In this document: positions 5,418-22,170 of the stretch, one piece after another
How positions within the stretch are numbered: the first letter of the stretch is position 1
Layout of the letters: every line of letters starts with the position of its first letter
DNA from: a bacterium
GTDB taxonomy: Bacteria; Patescibacteriota; Saccharimonadia; Saccharimonadales; Saccharimonadaceae
Direction: 5' to 3'
Length of the DNA stretch: 64,000 bases
Assembly: GCA_027451105.1 (NCBI GenBank)
Contig: DAIDKB010000024.1
Location: forward strand, 1-64,000
Program-made: the position numbers and the translations under genes
The notes under the pieces: generated by a model
The model's input: the letters and a program-made list of their open reading frames with translations, nothing else
The model's database searches: none
Told to the model about the DNA's origin: nothing

Positions 5418-5447
5418 AATAAGAGCCCGAGTGGGCTCTTATTTTAT
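5418..5447. terminator. Bidirectional rho-independent terminator
   Basis: An 11-bp perfect stem (5418-5428 pairs with 5433-5443) with a GAGT loop, A/T-rich on both sides. It separates the convergent kinase gene and rpoD. Confidence 0.88.
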
Positions 5448-5460
5448 TATCGATTACGAC

Positions 5461-6477
5461 TTAGCCTAAGTACTCATGTAGCTTCTTGGCGTCTTTGTGC
5501 TTGCGTAGTTTGGCAAGCGCCTTGGCTTCAATCTGGCGAATGCGTTCGCGGGTGACGGCAAACTCTTGACCAACCTCTTCGAGGGTGTGTGACTTACCAT
5601 TTTCTAGGCCAAATCGCATTTTGACGATTTTTTGCTCACGATCACTTAGCGTCGATAGAATTGACTGAACCTGCTCTTTTAACAGCTGTGAGGTGGCTGA
5701 CTCTTCTGGCGTGGTGCTATCTTCATCTTCGATAAAGTCGCCCAGAACTGAATCTTCGTCTTCACCATCGCGACCAACACCAGCATCAAGTGAGGTGATG
5801 TCTTGCTTGATCTTGATGACGTACTCAACCTTGTCTGGTTCCATCTCAAGCTCTTTGGCTAGCTCTTCGATAGTTGGCTCGCGGTTAAGCTCTTGAGTCA
5901 TACGACGCTGGGTGCGCAGCAACTTGTTAATTGTCTCAACCATGTGCACCGGAATACGAATGGTACGAGCCTGGTCGGCAATGGCGCGGGTAATCGCCTG
6001 GCGAATCCACCAAGTCGCGTAGGTACTAAACTTAAAGCCCTTGTCGGGATCAAACTTCTCAACGGCACGTAATAAACCGGTATTACCCTCTTGGATTAAG
6101 TCCAAAAAGTCTAGACCGCGGCCGCTATAACGCTTGGCAATCGAAACCACCAAACGCATGTTGGCTTCGGCCATTTTGTCTTTGGCTTTTTTGTCGCCTG
6201 CCACAACGCGGTGCGCTAGCGCCAATTCTTCTTCAGAGTTCAGCAGAGGAATTTTACCAATTTCGCGCAGGTAAAGACGAACGCTGTCATCGCTAGCATC
6301 GTCAAAATATTGACCCTGGCTTAGGATGTCATCATCCTCTTCTTCCTCATCTTCCAGCTCTTCAATCGCCGGCTCTTCAATATCAGACAACGGCGCCACG
6401 ATATCGCCAATTATTGGATCATCGTCCTTTAAGATTTCATCATCGAGCGGAATATCATTAGTCTTATCTTTGGCCAC
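5461..6477 (-). CDS. rpoD: RNA polymerase primary sigma factor (sigma-70)
   Basis: 338 aa. An acidic N-terminal tail replaces region 1.1. It is followed by region 1.2 ([16 protein letters not shown]), region 2 with [16 protein letters not shown] and [13 protein letters not shown], region 3, and region 4 with the helix-turn-helix [14 protein letters not shown]. This is a compact housekeeping factor. The start is GTG with AGGAG 7 nt upstream, and the gene overlaps the dnaG 3' end by 14 bp, so dnaG and rpoD form a reduced macromolecular-synthesis operon without rpsU. It presumably recognises the TTGAC(A/T)-17-TATAAT promoters seen throughout the window. Confidence 0.97.
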
Positions 6478-18031: not shown

Positions 18032-19030
18032 CTATTCCGACTTAGATTGACCGCCGCCCGAGTTAACTTCGTATGAGGTATTGGTGCTCTCAAAGAAGTT
18101 CACTAACTGCAATGTATCATTTGCCGCCGCCATCCATTTAGCCGGGTTCGACACCTTATAATGTGCCTCAAAGCCTAACTCTTCCAGGCGGCGATCGGCC
18201 AGATATTTAACGTATTGATTAATGTAGTCGCTATTTAAGCCCAAGATGCCATTTGGCAGCAGGTCGCGGTTGTAGGCCTCTTCCATCTCAACACCGTCTA
18301 AAATCATTTGCTTAATCTCGGCAGCAAATTCTTCAGTCTGCAAATCTTCATTTTCCTCTAACACCGTCAAGATCAGATTAATCCCAAACTTCAGGTGCAA
18401 GCTTTCATCGCGAACCACCCAGTCAATTAGTGAGCCAAAGTTACGCAGCAAATTGCGCTGGCGGAACGATAAAGCCACCATAAAACCGCTATAAAACCAA
18501 ATTCCCTCAAGAATGACATTGTAGGCAATCAGATTACGTACAAAATCTTTCTTGCCTTCGGTCGTCGTGATATCAAGCGTCTCTTCGGTCATCCGCTTGA
18601 TGTATTTCGTCTCAAATTCCTCCTTAACGGCCATTGACGGCGTATCGATATGCGCCGCATAAGCTTGGTCGCGGTCAATCGGAAAAGTCTCCAGGACATA
18701 CTCAAAACTCATACAGTGGTTGGCCTCTTCCCACATCTGCTTGGCCAAATACAAATGACACTCGGCGGCATTAACGTATGGATAAACGCCAAAGGCTAGC
18801 GCCTTATTAACCAGTAGCTCGTTCGGATTAAAATAGCTCATCAAAAATGTAATGGCGTGGCGCTCTTCCTCGCTCATTTTTTTCCAATCCGATAAATCCT
18901 GACCAAGCTGAATTTCATTTGGAAACCAGGTGTTAGATACCGCTTGATCATATAAGTCCATCGCCCACTGATATTTAACCGGTTTTAATAACAATGCGTC
19001 CTGTATGCCTGTTCCTAAGATTCCCGCCAT
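18032..19030 (-). CDS. nrdB: Class Ic-type ribonucleotide reductase small subunit
   Basis: 332 aa ferritin-like R2 subunit that generates the oxidant for ribonucleotide reduction. Metal ligands by alignment to E. coli R2 are Glu71 (Asp84 in E. coli), Glu102-x-x-His105, Glu175 and Glu209-x-x-His212. The radical tyrosine (E. coli Tyr122, four residues after the first His) is Phe109. Glu as first ligand together with Phe at the radical site is the signature of class Ic enzymes such as that of Chlamydia trachomatis, which use a Mn/Fe cofactor. Last gene of nrdA / redox tail / orf95 / nrdB, separated from orf95 by 1 bp. Confidence 0.95.
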   Translation of the reverse strand: MAGILGTGIQDALLLKPVKYQWAMDLYDQAVSNTWFPNEIQLGQDLSDWKKMSEEERHAITFLMSYFNPNELLVNKALAFGVYPYVNAAECHLYLAKQMWEEANHCMSFEYVLETFPIDRDQAYAAHIDTPSMAVKEEFETKYIKRMTEETLDITTTEGKKDFVRNLIAYNVILEGIWFYSGFMVALSFRQRNLLRNFGSLIDWVVRDESLHLKFGINLILTVLEENEDLQTEEFAAEIKQMILDGVEMEEAYNRDLLPNGILGLNSDYINQYVKYLADRRLEELGFEAHYKVSNPAKWMAAANDTLQLVNFFESTNTSYEVNSGGGQSKSE

Positions 19031-19031
19031 A

Positions 19032-19319
19032 TTATTTGACCTCCTCTAGTTCACTATTTAACATTTCATCCAAATCCGCATCAGTGATAGTGCTATCGCT
19101 TAGCTCACTAAGGCGGGTCGCTAACATTCCCATTTCGCGCTGCGCTACTTCGCGTTGAATTTGCAACTCGGCGATATTTTCGGTCGTACGTTCCGTGCTC
19201 GGCTCCAACAAATTGGCATTTAAATCTTGGTACCACTCCAGCGTATAGTCCAGCCGCGTGCTGACTGCCTGACGATCGTTAAAGTAGTAGTAATCAGTTT
19301 CTTGATTGCCGCGTGCCAT
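19032..19319 (-). CDS. Small helical protein in the nrd operon
   Basis: 95 aa, not recognised. An aromatic N-terminal segment (TDYYYFNDRQAVSTRLDYTLEWY) precedes an acidic, mostly helical C-terminus with likely coiled-coil periodicity (about residues 45-95). No cysteines and no signal peptide. It lies 4 bp after the redox-tail ORF and 1 bp before nrdB, so it is tightly coupled with the reductase. A role as an assembly or regulatory partner of R2 is only inferred. Confidence 0.7.
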   Translation of the reverse strand: MARGNQETDYYYFNDRQAVSTRLDYTLEWYQDLNANLLEPSTERTTENIAELQIQREVAQREMGMLATRLSELSDSTITDADLDEMLNSELEEVK

Positions 19320-19323
19320 AGTC

Positions 19324-19497
19324 CTACTGGCAACCTTCGCACATTGTTAAGTCGGCTGGATCAAGCGGTGCCGCTACCACACCAGCTGCACTAGCCGCTT
19401 CGTCGGCCTTTTGCTGAGCGTCGGCCATAGCGGCATCGATGGCAGCTAGCTTTTCTTCCAAGGTCATTTCGTCATTGATGATTGTTGATGCGTTCAT
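19324..19497 (-). CDS. Separate C-terminal redox tail of ribonucleotide reductase R1
   Basis: 57 aa. A strong GGGGGA Shine-Dalgarno lies 7 nt before the ATG. The sequence is an Ala/Glu/Asp-rich helix followed by a flexible Ala/Pro stretch, and ends LTMCEGCQ. A C-terminal C-x-x-C on a flexible arm is exactly what class I R1 subunits use to re-reduce their active site, and the nrdA product just upstream has no cysteines in its tail. The frame differs from nrdA and a 31-nt gap separates them, so readthrough cannot fuse them. Inferred to deliver reducing equivalents to NrdA in trans. Confidence 0.75.
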   Translation of the reverse strand: MNASTIINDEMTLEEKLAAIDAAMADAQQKADEAASAAGVVAAPLDPADLTMCEGCQ

Positions 19498-19528
19498 AAT
19501 TATTTCCCCCTAATCGATTTATTTAATG

Positions 19529-21919
19529 CTATTTCGCCTTGGCAAAGCCAAACCCAACTTTACGCGCGCCGCCCGTTGTCTCGGCTTTATTAACCTTAAC
19601 GGTGCTTTGCTCGGCGGTGTGACGTGGCTTAACGTGCAGATAATAAGTCGTCTTGAGACCACGTTGCCAAGCGGCCATATAGATATCAACCATGTCATTA
19701 ATATCGCGGGTTTCTAAGTACATATTGCGACTAATCGCCTGATCAACCCATTTTTGTGCCCTTGCAGCGACTTCAATAAAGGCGTACGGACTAAGTTGAA
19801 AACTGGTTTTGTATACATTTTTTATGCGCTGCGGAATAGCTTCAATCACTTGAACATCCCCCTGCGTACGCAGGACTTCCTCTTTAACTTCTTCCCACAA
19901 GCCCAATTCCTTCAGGTCATTAACCAAGTTGGTATTAACTTCCAAAAACTTACCATTTAAGGTTGCGCGACTAAAAATTTGTGCAAACTGCGGATCAAGC
20001 CCTGGCGTCGTACCGGCGATGTGGGCAATATTAGCGGTTGGTGCAATTGCCATCAGGGTGGCATTACGCATCCCCTTTTTGACCTTGGCGCGTAGCTTTT
20101 CCCAGTCCAAGCGCTTTGTGCGATTAACTTCAACTGGCACCTGGCGATCAGCCGCTAACTTATCAACCGTATCAATCGGCAAAATTCCTTGACTCCAACC
20201 ACTGCCCTTAAAGGTCGGATAAGCGCCAAACTTTTTCGCCAAAATGGTCGACTCGTCGATTGCTTGGTAGCTAATAAATTCAGTTAACTGATCCATCAGA
20301 TCGTAGGCTTCTTCAGATTCGTAACTATGGCCCAACTTTTCAATTACATCAGTAAAGCCCATCAGCCCCAGGCCAAGCGCGCGGTTTTGCTTGTTGCTAT
20401 TCATCGCCTCAGGTATCGGTGTACTCGTAATATCCACCAAGTTATCAAGCTGGCGAATAGCACTTCTAGTACTACTTTCCAGGCGGTCCCAGTCCCAGGT
20501 CTTGTCGGCCTTCAAATGAGCTGACAAGTTAATACTGACCAGGTTACAAACCGCCGTATTATCCTTGTCTTGCGGCAAAGTAATCTCGGTACACAAGTTG
20601 GATAAATGAATTGTACTGGTATTATTGTTCAACGCCCGAACGTTAATCGTGTCCTTCCAGGTCAGCCATGGGTGGCTTGTCGCCTGCAGTGTAATCAGAA
20701 TTTGGCGGAATTGTTCACGGGCTTTAGTTTTAGTAAAATCGCGCATCTTGCCAGCTTCAGCATCTTTGATGTACGAAGCATATCGAGCACTAAAGGCAGC
20801 ACCGTACAGTTCCGGCAAATCTTTGACTTCAGCCGGATCAAACAGATACCAATCTTCGTCGGCCTGCACTCGTTTCATAAATTCGTCACTAATAAAGACG
20901 GCCGTATTCGCTAGTCGCGTACGCAGATATGGATCACCTGAGTTTTGCTTTAGGTCCAAAAACTGCGGAAAGTTCAGGTGCCAGTTTTCCATGTAAAGTG
21001 CCGCAGCGCCTTGTTTTTTGCCCTTTCGGCTGACGGCGAATAGTGCCGTATCAATCATCTTCATAAATGGGATCGGACCAGTTGATTCGGTGTTGGTCGT
21101 TTTAACTGGACTACCGGCCGCACGCAGTTTGTTCATGCTAATGCCGATGCCCCCAGTGCCCTTGGCAATCCACATGACATCACGTACACCCTTGGCAATC
21201 GACTCCATGTCGTCCTGAACTTCGATCAAAAAACAGTTGGACAGTTGCGGAAATGATCCACCAGCATTGACCCGTGTCGAGCCGCCCGGCACATAATCCA
21301 ATCGGCTCATATGCTCGTAAAAATCAAGCGCACAAGCCGTTGGATCTTCGGCATTAAAACTAAGGCCCATAGCGATGCGCATGTGCGTGTATTGCGGCAC
21401 CTCAATCGGCTCGCCACTTTGGCGGCGCAAGGCATAACGGTTTTTATTCGTGACGACACCCAGGTATTTACTTAGGCTATCGCGCGATGGATCAAGGGCT
21501 TTAGCCAGCTTTTTTAAATTAAACACCTTACCATTCATGCGCTCATCAAGCAAGCCGTTGTCGCGACCAAACTTCAGGTAATCGGCAAACTTGGTCTCGT
21601 GCAACTTTTTCAGCTCGGCCTCACTTGAATAGTCACCTAGGATGTTTTTATAGATATTCTTGAGCAACAACCTCGCTGCAATGATGTCAAAATCAGGATC
21701 GTCTTTGACGTTCTGAAGCGCGGTATTAATCACCGCCTCATCAAGTTGCTCACTAGTAATACCATCAAACAGAGTCAGCTGTAGTTCGGCCGCAACCTGC
21801 ACAACCTTTGAAATTTGGTCGGCTAAACCTTCGCTGGCTTGGACTAACGCTAGGTTAATCTTGTTGGCATCAAATGGCTCGCGCGTGCCGTCCCTCTTAA
21901 CTACCTTTATTTCACTCAT
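19529..21919 (-). CDS. nrdA: Class I ribonucleotide reductase large subunit
   Basis: 796 aa. One N-terminal ATP-cone (residues 4-90) for allosteric activity control is followed by the ten-stranded barrel. Active-site features are Cys229 in LSNCFLIE, the NLCTE loop (Asn, thiyl-radical Cys, Glu) and AVCNLVS for the second redox cysteine. The radical-transfer tyrosine pair is Tyr759-Tyr760 in TTYYLHV. The protein ends 36 residues later in a Lys/Gly-rich tail with no cysteine, unlike the usual R1. The missing redox pair is in the next ORF. A 270-bp leader with NrdR-like boxes precedes the gene. Confidence 0.97.
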   Translation of the reverse strand: MSEIKVVKRDGTREPFDANKINLALVQASEGLADQISKVVQVAAELQLTLFDGITSEQLDEAVINTALQNVKDDPDFDIIAARLLLKNIYKNILGDYSSEAELKKLHETKFADYLKFGRDNGLLDERMNGKVFNLKKLAKALDPSRDSLSKYLGVVTNKNRYALRRQSGEPIEVPQYTHMRIAMGLSFNAEDPTACALDFYEHMSRLDYVPGGSTRVNAGGSFPQLSNCFLIEVQDDMESIAKGVRDVMWIAKGTGGIGISMNKLRAAGSPVKTTNTESTGPIPFMKMIDTALFAVSRKGKKQGAAALYMENWHLNFPQFLDLKQNSGDPYLRTRLANTAVFISDEFMKRVQADEDWYLFDPAEVKDLPELYGAAFSARYASYIKDAEAGKMRDFTKTKAREQFRQILITLQATSHPWLTWKDTINVRALNNNTSTIHLSNLCTEITLPQDKDNTAVCNLVSINLSAHLKADKTWDWDRLESSTRSAIRQLDNLVDITSTPIPEAMNSNKQNRALGLGLMGFTDVIEKLGHSYESEEAYDLMDQLTEFISYQAIDESTILAKKFGAYPTFKGSGWSQGILPIDTVDKLAADRQVPVEVNRTKRLDWEKLRAKVKKGMRNATLMAIAPTANIAHIAGTTPGLDPQFAQIFSRATLNGKFLEVNTNLVNDLKELGLWEEVKEEVLRTQGDVQVIEAIPQRIKNVYKTSFQLSPYAFIEVAARAQKWVDQAISRNMYLETRDINDMVDIYMAAWQRGLKTTYYLHVKPRHTAEQSTVKVNKAETTGGARKVGFGFAKAK

Positions 21920-22020: not shown

Positions 22021-22038
22021 GTCTGTTTTGTTTGAACT

Positions 22039-22054
22039 ACCGTATATGTAGTGT
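22039..22054. promoter_or_regulatory. NrdR-box-like site
   Basis: ACCGTATATGTAGTGT matches the NrdR consensus ACACTATATATAGTGT at 13 of 16 positions. It lies 120 bp upstream of nrdA, near candidate -10 sequences. Confidence 0.55.
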
Positions 22055-22170
22055 CTGATAATGACTATATACCCCTAGATATATTCATTCAAGCCTAATG
22101 CTCATGTTTTTTTAACTACGAATGTGACTTAGGTCAATTTATACCTTATAGCGTAGTGTTTATTATTTAC

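Follow-up and report, generated by a model that had tools for sequence, protein, structure and literature searches.

The class I ribonucleotide reductase (RNR) of this Saccharibacteria genome is very probably a split enzyme, of which a 57-amino-acid protein encoded just downstream of nrdA would be the trans-acting redox subunit; this activity is inferred, and there are no biochemical data for it. It is near certain, on the other hand, that the tail is a separate gene under selection. As judged by sequence, the redox cysteines are located on a second polypeptide, as in the NrdJa/NrdJb split, their redox activity being likewise inferred. The window (the whole 64,000-nucleotide stretch that was analysed) is contig 23 in an assembly of 46 contigs and 919 kb, and the genes in question are arranged on its minus strand in the order nrdA, 57-codon tail ORF, 95-codon ORF, nrdB.

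The nrdA locus and its tail gene

The nrdA gene (19529..21919, minus strand) encodes a class I catalytic subunit of 796 amino acids, in which one ATP cone (PF03477), the all-alpha domain (PF00317) and the barrel (PF02867, E 1.7e-162) were recognized. The sequence-only reading of this DNA had claimed that the protein lacks a C-terminal cysteine pair, and it indeed ends in KVGFGFAKAK, without any CxxC. Its match to the NCBIfam R1 model NF005101 (822 positions; 1354 bits) covers positions 2-788; since the match stops at 788 of 822, the last ~34 positions, where a tail would be expected, are missing from NrdA. The protein belongs to class I by the models, scoring 658 bits against NrdE_NrdA (TIGR02506, cut-off 341), and the class II test was not met, the score against NrdJ_Z (TIGR02504) being 370, under the cut-off of 400. 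C229, C443 and C458 (numbering of the L034 row) are invariant in the 25 rows of NrdA alignment A2, and the sequence contains KTTYYLH, with the Tyr-Tyr dyad of R1; we take these active-site cysteines and tyrosines to match the corresponding E. coli positions.

The nearby nrdB (18032..19030, minus strand) encodes the ferritin-like, radical-generating subunit of 332 amino acids (PF00268, E 2.5e-74). The solved structure closest to it by sequence is R2c of Chlamydia trachomatis (1syy), in which Phe replaces the radical Tyr; alignment of EANHCMSF of the window NrdB to EAVHTHTF of 1syy places Phe at the same site. The enzyme is thereby assigned as a class I, Ic-like RNR, although its Mn/Fe cofactor content is not known from sequence. 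Unlike in the class Ic RNR of C. trachomatis, whose NrdA carries its own tail, the tail of the Saccharibacteria NrdA is separate.

The tail gene (19324..19497, minus strand) reads from 19497 to 19324 as 57 codons with the translation MNASTIINDEMTLEEKLAAIDAAMADAQQKADEAASAAGVVAAPLDPADLTMCEGCQ and the stop codon TAG, and its product consists of an N-terminal part, a helix (13-38), a variable linker and the C-terminal DPADLTMCEGCQ. It is separated from nrdA by a spacer of 31 nt (19498..19528, minus strand), which contains the Shine-Dalgarno-like GGGGGA just upstream of the ATG. It had been proposed from the letters alone that a small ORF, 31 nt downstream of nrdA, in a different frame and with a Shine-Dalgarno sequence, has 57 codons and ends in LTMCEGCQ like the CxxC arm of ordinary R1 proteins; the coordinates proved exact and the translation confirmed the ending, and the likeness holds as well, DPxxxxxCxxCQ being found fused in related R1 proteins.

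The 95-codon ORF between the tail gene and nrdB (19032..19319, minus strand) matches no family and has no assigned function; among 87 loci, its relatives were found only in L034 and L035, and the same gap in several other Saccharibacteria loci holds different small ORFs. Upstream of nrdA, at 22030-22170 (minus strand), are two stretches containing ACACTAC, which resemble NrdR boxes; a scan for promoters and terminators returned signals no commoner than in shuffles. The same genome (G000) also encodes a class II NrdJ on contig 34, where a thioredoxin gene (20042-20344, minus strand) is divergent from nrdJ; the two classes of RNR thus occur together, perhaps with different reductants.

A short ORF ending in CxxC, taken alone, is not rare: such an ending was found in 2 of 213 ATG ORFs of 30-100 amino acids in the window, and in 73 of 2080 in loci L034-L100 (tails included). 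What raises the tail above chance, and rules out a chance ORF, is its conservation, its purifying selection and its genome-by-genome co-occurrence with class I NrdA, described below. All 45 aligned tails share the two cysteines, the DP and one Ile without exception, and mean identity is 0.75 in the helix and 0.78 at the C-terminus, against 0.36 in the linker. Among 20 tails of equal length, pN was lower than pS in 190 of 190 pairs, with a median pN/pS of 0.24. No Pfam or NCBIfam family scored over cut-off against the 57-residue protein with its two cysteines, and the test for a glutaredoxin or NrdH redoxin gave no PF00462 match in it. The AlphaFold model of the tail alone predicted helices at 3-6, 13-38 and 47-51 with a pLDDT of 81, falling to 59 at the cysteine end. 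When NrdA and tail were modelled together (in-frame read-through, L034; 25 sequences), the mean pLDDT was 59, with ~55-75 in the tail helix, and no contacts could be judged.

Distribution and origin of the separate tail

A scan of GTDB genomes with the window NrdA returned 107 relatives, of which the best 80 were kept, comprising 62 Saccharibacteria-clade loci and 18 others as assigned by sequence; tail ORFs were sought by a regular expression for at least 25 codons within 1.3 kb, and copies lying farther off were then added. In 59 of the 62 Saccharibacteria-clade loci of this best-80 set, NrdA has no CxxC end and is accompanied by a separate downstream ORF of 34-76 codons that ends in CxxC; the remaining three (L089, L091, L092) stop at or near contig ends. 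The separate tail is therefore present in all loci of the clade with enough sequence. Outside the clade, the motif is fused to NrdA in 17 of the 18 loci of the same set (L095, L097-L099, L101-L113), and in the remaining one (L093) the tail ORF and the NrdA stop share 4 nt (ATGA). Among L098-L113, the R1 proteins of Nomurabacteria and Falkowbacteria bear the same motif, DPxxxxxCxSCQ, fused through a linker of varied length; along with L095, these are the closest fused relatives of the window NrdA sampled in the best 80 of 107. The comparison of Saccharibacteria nrdA loci for fused and split tails, suggested by the sequence-only reading, thus came out in favour of the split. In L059 (+6 to +84 after nrdA), L062 (+11 to +92) and L079, cysteine-rich ORFs of 25-33 codons precede the tail gene.

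Co-occurrence was recorded in 394 genomes of the family. A P0001 match of any kind was found in 142 genomes, of which 37 (including G141 and G103) were dropped as NrdJ-like or marginal, leaving class I NrdA in 105; the tail profile also matched 105. Both were present in 101 genomes, NrdA alone in four, the tail alone in four and neither in 285. The four genomes with NrdA alone (G146, G173, G260, G269) all have partial NrdA matches, and those with the tail alone are G109 (67% complete), G141, and G165 and G178 (weak partial matches); G141, though dropped from the NrdA count, holds a class I NrdA end, the tail and nrdB. It is to be noted that the 59 loci and the 394 genomes share GTDB species, so that the two counts are not independent. 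In the sample of the order, the eight genomes with class I NrdA were the same eight that had a clear tail, and the genomes with NrdJ only had no tail, except for one weak match in G078. This pattern ties the tail to class I RNR and not to class II. A role of the tail in serving NrdJ was accordingly ruled out by the NrdJ-only genomes; in addition, the NrdJ of the window genome (L181) has a cysteine-rich C-terminal end of its own.

The tail gene was found downstream of nrdA on the same contig and strand in 98 of the 101 genomes that have both, lying within 130 nt in 66 genomes and 1-2.7 kb away in 26 of the 98 same-contig pairs. L100 and the members of one clade (16 tree rows) have the tail last, after nrdA, nrdB and other genes. 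Where this order occurs among L060-L094, a PNPOx-like ORF and sometimes a DUF84 NTPase ORF precede the tail, and the identity of NrdB to that of the window is 66-72%, versus ~83-98% in loci of the order nrdA-tail-nrdB.

For the origin of the split, an NrdA tree was built from 74 cores chosen from the rows in hand, with the tail columns removed and a fast model without mixtures. All 49 Saccharibacteria-clade rows with a separate tail fell into one group (SH-aLRT 99), which this tree puts at the base of that clade; long-branch warnings at L151 and L142 did not touch this group. The tree requires three changes between split and fused forms, namely in the Saccharibacteria clade, at L093 beside the fused L095, and at L143 (genome G601) within a fused family. 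In G601 (L143/L184), nrdA without a cysteine end is followed by nrdB and then by a tail ORF (L184:6479-6688, plus strand) ending in GDPNLNVCESCQ, the fused counterpart in its sister genomes being GDPNLNICESCQ; the separate ORF, seen in only 1 of 10 genomes of this other Patescibacteria family, is apparently an independent split of the R1 tail. L163, from another family of the class, has a separate 54-residue tail ending in ACPIDPAERALCDSCQ, nearly the fused tail of L141, ACPIDPQERLQCDSCQ, and on this sequence similarity it links the separate and fused forms. L093 (tail ORF at 5439-5540) and L095 are contigs of 68% GC that bear the labels Microbacteriaceae and Actinomycetes, and have the closest NrdAB sampled outside the Saccharibacteria clade; a transfer between Saccharibacteria and Actinobacteria is possible. 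The R1 of G696 (L151, L183), from another member of the class, ends in a long linker that lacks paired cysteines; the 18 kb searched around it contain no ORF of 20 codons or more with a CxxC end, which leaves this case unexplained.

Tail genes in phages and prophage-like regions

A second tail gene, away from nrdAB, is present in two genomes of the family. The copy in G236 precedes the gene for a terminase large subunit by 2.6 kb; portal and tape-measure genes come next, and typA, ligA and uvrC are found further along the contig. The copy in G280 (L176/L224, contig 29) adjoins a chaperonin-60 gene, with tail-spike and amidase genes nearby and typA and ddl further on. By their gene content, both regions look like prophages in Saccharibacteria chromosomes. 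A stretch that looked by eye like an integrase fragment (L177:182-478) matched only an HNH endonuclease family, and that weakly.

When IMG/VR was scanned with the tail alignment, 30 viral contigs with a tail were retrieved, some of them near copies (L193, L197, L198 and L199; also L205 and L207). The CxxC is kept in all 30, in ORFs of 47-72 codons. The sampled contigs carry terminase, portal, tape measure and exonuclease genes, by which they were identified as phage; that their hosts are Saccharibacteria is inferred only from the similarity of the tails and from the two prophage-like regions. Neither the R1 barrel (PF02867) nor R2 (PF00268) was found in any of the 30 whole phage records, which may be fragments, while the same searches gave matches in 11 and 7, respectively, of 14 control genomes; an NrdA scan of the same viral collection also returned no match. 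Two tail queries found no match in 50,697 GenBank phage records. Nine of the 30 phage loci have an ORF of the glutaredoxin family no more than 0.5 kb from the tail (five of the nine were checked against Pfam), either downstream (L193, L197, L198, L199, L203, L210) or upstream (L213-L215); it shares ~1-10 nt with the tail ORF in L210, L213 and L215. In the stretches examined around the tail, glutaredoxin was not found in the other 21 loci, and no further ORF matched those glutaredoxins.

Proposed mechanism, alternatives and significance

All class I RNRs are described as having the C-terminal cysteine pair in NrdA (PMC6187632), a criterion that the window NrdA does not meet, and in a large RNR phylogeny the terminal CxxC was present in 1737 of 2022 class I sequences (PMC9531940). 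The tail is most likely a trans-acting redox subunit, with NrdJb of the Pseudomonas class II RNR as its analogue. In the NrdJa/NrdJb system of Pseudomonas aeruginosa and other Proteobacteria, the catalytic subunit likewise lacks the redox cysteines, and a gene of the operon supplies C-terminal cysteines in trans; NrdJb carries out the disulfide exchange, has a Kd of 54-690 nM for NrdJa and is required in vivo, and the pair was called, as of 2015, the only split RNR of a non-viral organism (PMC4520616). NrdJa/NrdJb is, however, a B12-dependent class II enzyme, whereas that of Saccharibacteria is class I with NrdB and an ATP cone; the Saccharibacteria tail is also far smaller than NrdJb, with 57 residues, two cysteines and no known domain, and its gene varies in position and also occurs in phages. 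In the available portion of PMC9669993, split RNR is named for class II only. A class I NrdA encoded in pieces is known from Aeromonas phage Aeh1, in which the homing endonuclease gene mobE interrupts nrdA in a region critical for function, and the pieces form an active enzyme (PMC2988022). That case concerns one phage, whereas in Saccharibacteria only the flexible tail is detached, across a 31-nt gap without an endonuclease gene. The Grx-NrdB fusion of Facklamia ignava is similar in that the class I reductant relay is rearranged, but there it is glutaredoxin that has moved, and not NrdA's own tail that is detached (PMC6187632).

The open-access literature, searched partly by titles and abstracts and without subscription papers or preprints, yielded no report of a separate RNR tail in Saccharibacteria or Patescibacteria and nothing on Nanosynbacter and RNR, and only PMC4520616 for a separate polypeptide with the C-terminal cysteines of RNR; nrd is not mentioned in the main text of a Saccharibacteria Tn-seq study (PMC10633639). 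The claim of a new arrangement made in the sequence-only reading is upheld in part. Split RNR itself, with redox cysteines acting in trans, was known; what is new is the split of a class I enzyme, the very small tail, its extent over a whole bacterial group, and phages with the tail alone.

In the mechanism that we propose, the conserved helix (MTLEEKLAAID..) would dock the small protein on NrdA, for which the model offers no docking evidence, and the variable linker would let the CxxC reach the active-site disulfide of NrdA, for its reduction at the end of every turnover. Glutaredoxin would in turn restore the CxxC, once oxidised, to the reduced state. Among 10 NrdA-bearing genomes, glutaredoxin (PF00462) was detected in nine, the search not finding it in one, and thioredoxin (PF00085) in three; since, moreover, the thioredoxin gene of the window genome adjoins nrdJ, glutaredoxin is the more likely electron donor.

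Could the tail be truly fused to NrdA, and the split merely a sequencing or assembly indel? An indel plus a false stop could indeed place the tail in another frame 31 nt downstream, but the same split recurs in 59 loci from different assemblies, the tail has its own start and SD-like sequence, and its frame relative to NrdA shows all three relations (17, 17 and 12 of 46 adjacent cases). It is refuted by the copies of an entire clade in which nrdB separates the tail from nrdA, and the sequencing error that was earlier named as a possible refutation of the split is practically eliminated. The short spacers, and L045 in particular, where the tail is in frame and its ATG follows the NrdA stop after a single codon, would suit a programmed frameshift, a ribosome hop or stop readthrough that joins the two in some product. 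Neither the frame relation nor the spacer length is conserved, however, and phages have tails without any nrdA being found, which leaves such joining barely credible. With a variable frame, tails behind nrdB and tails 1-2.7 kb off, neither indel nor frameshift can explain the split, and a tail that lies behind nrdB, as in many genomes, cannot be a frameshift product.

The remaining alternatives accept the tail as a protein but assign it another role. It may bind NrdA or NrdB as a regulator, assembly factor or redox sensor, and not act as the turnover reductant; its helix is as conserved as its cysteine end, and phages often encode regulators of host enzymes. Nonetheless, the invariance of both cysteines in the aligned cellular tails and their retention in all phage copies, the exact replacement of the missing tail by the small protein, and the adjoining glutaredoxin in nine phage loci make this improbable. 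It is still harder to maintain that glutaredoxin or thioredoxin acts on NrdA directly as reductant and that the tail is an optional helper or a relic, although DTT can directly reduce the active site of RNRs without tail cysteines and NrdJa alone has low activity (PMC4520616). Purifying selection on the tail speaks against it, and within the Saccharibacteria clade no full-length class I NrdA with adequate flanks was seen without a tail. The trans-acting redox subunit is thus retained as the preferred reading.

A separate redox subunit would amount to a free, exchangeable tail. We hold, with moderate confidence only, that phages encoding just a tail of 47-72 residues, some with a glutaredoxin of their own, plug it into the host NrdA and take over or boost its reduction during infection, such that dNTP synthesis would probably be sustained. 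If true, the phage gene would stand in for a single functional arm of a host enzyme, as a minimal auxiliary metabolic gene, and the lone tail gene in phages suggests that re-reduction may limit the dNTP supply in these cells. The tail represents a small-protein family missed by standard annotation. Since the tail is disordered in fused enzymes, the re-reduction step is hard to see in them; the detached tail of Saccharibacteria offers a natural system for titrating, mutating and swapping the re-reduction step of RNR independently of catalysis.
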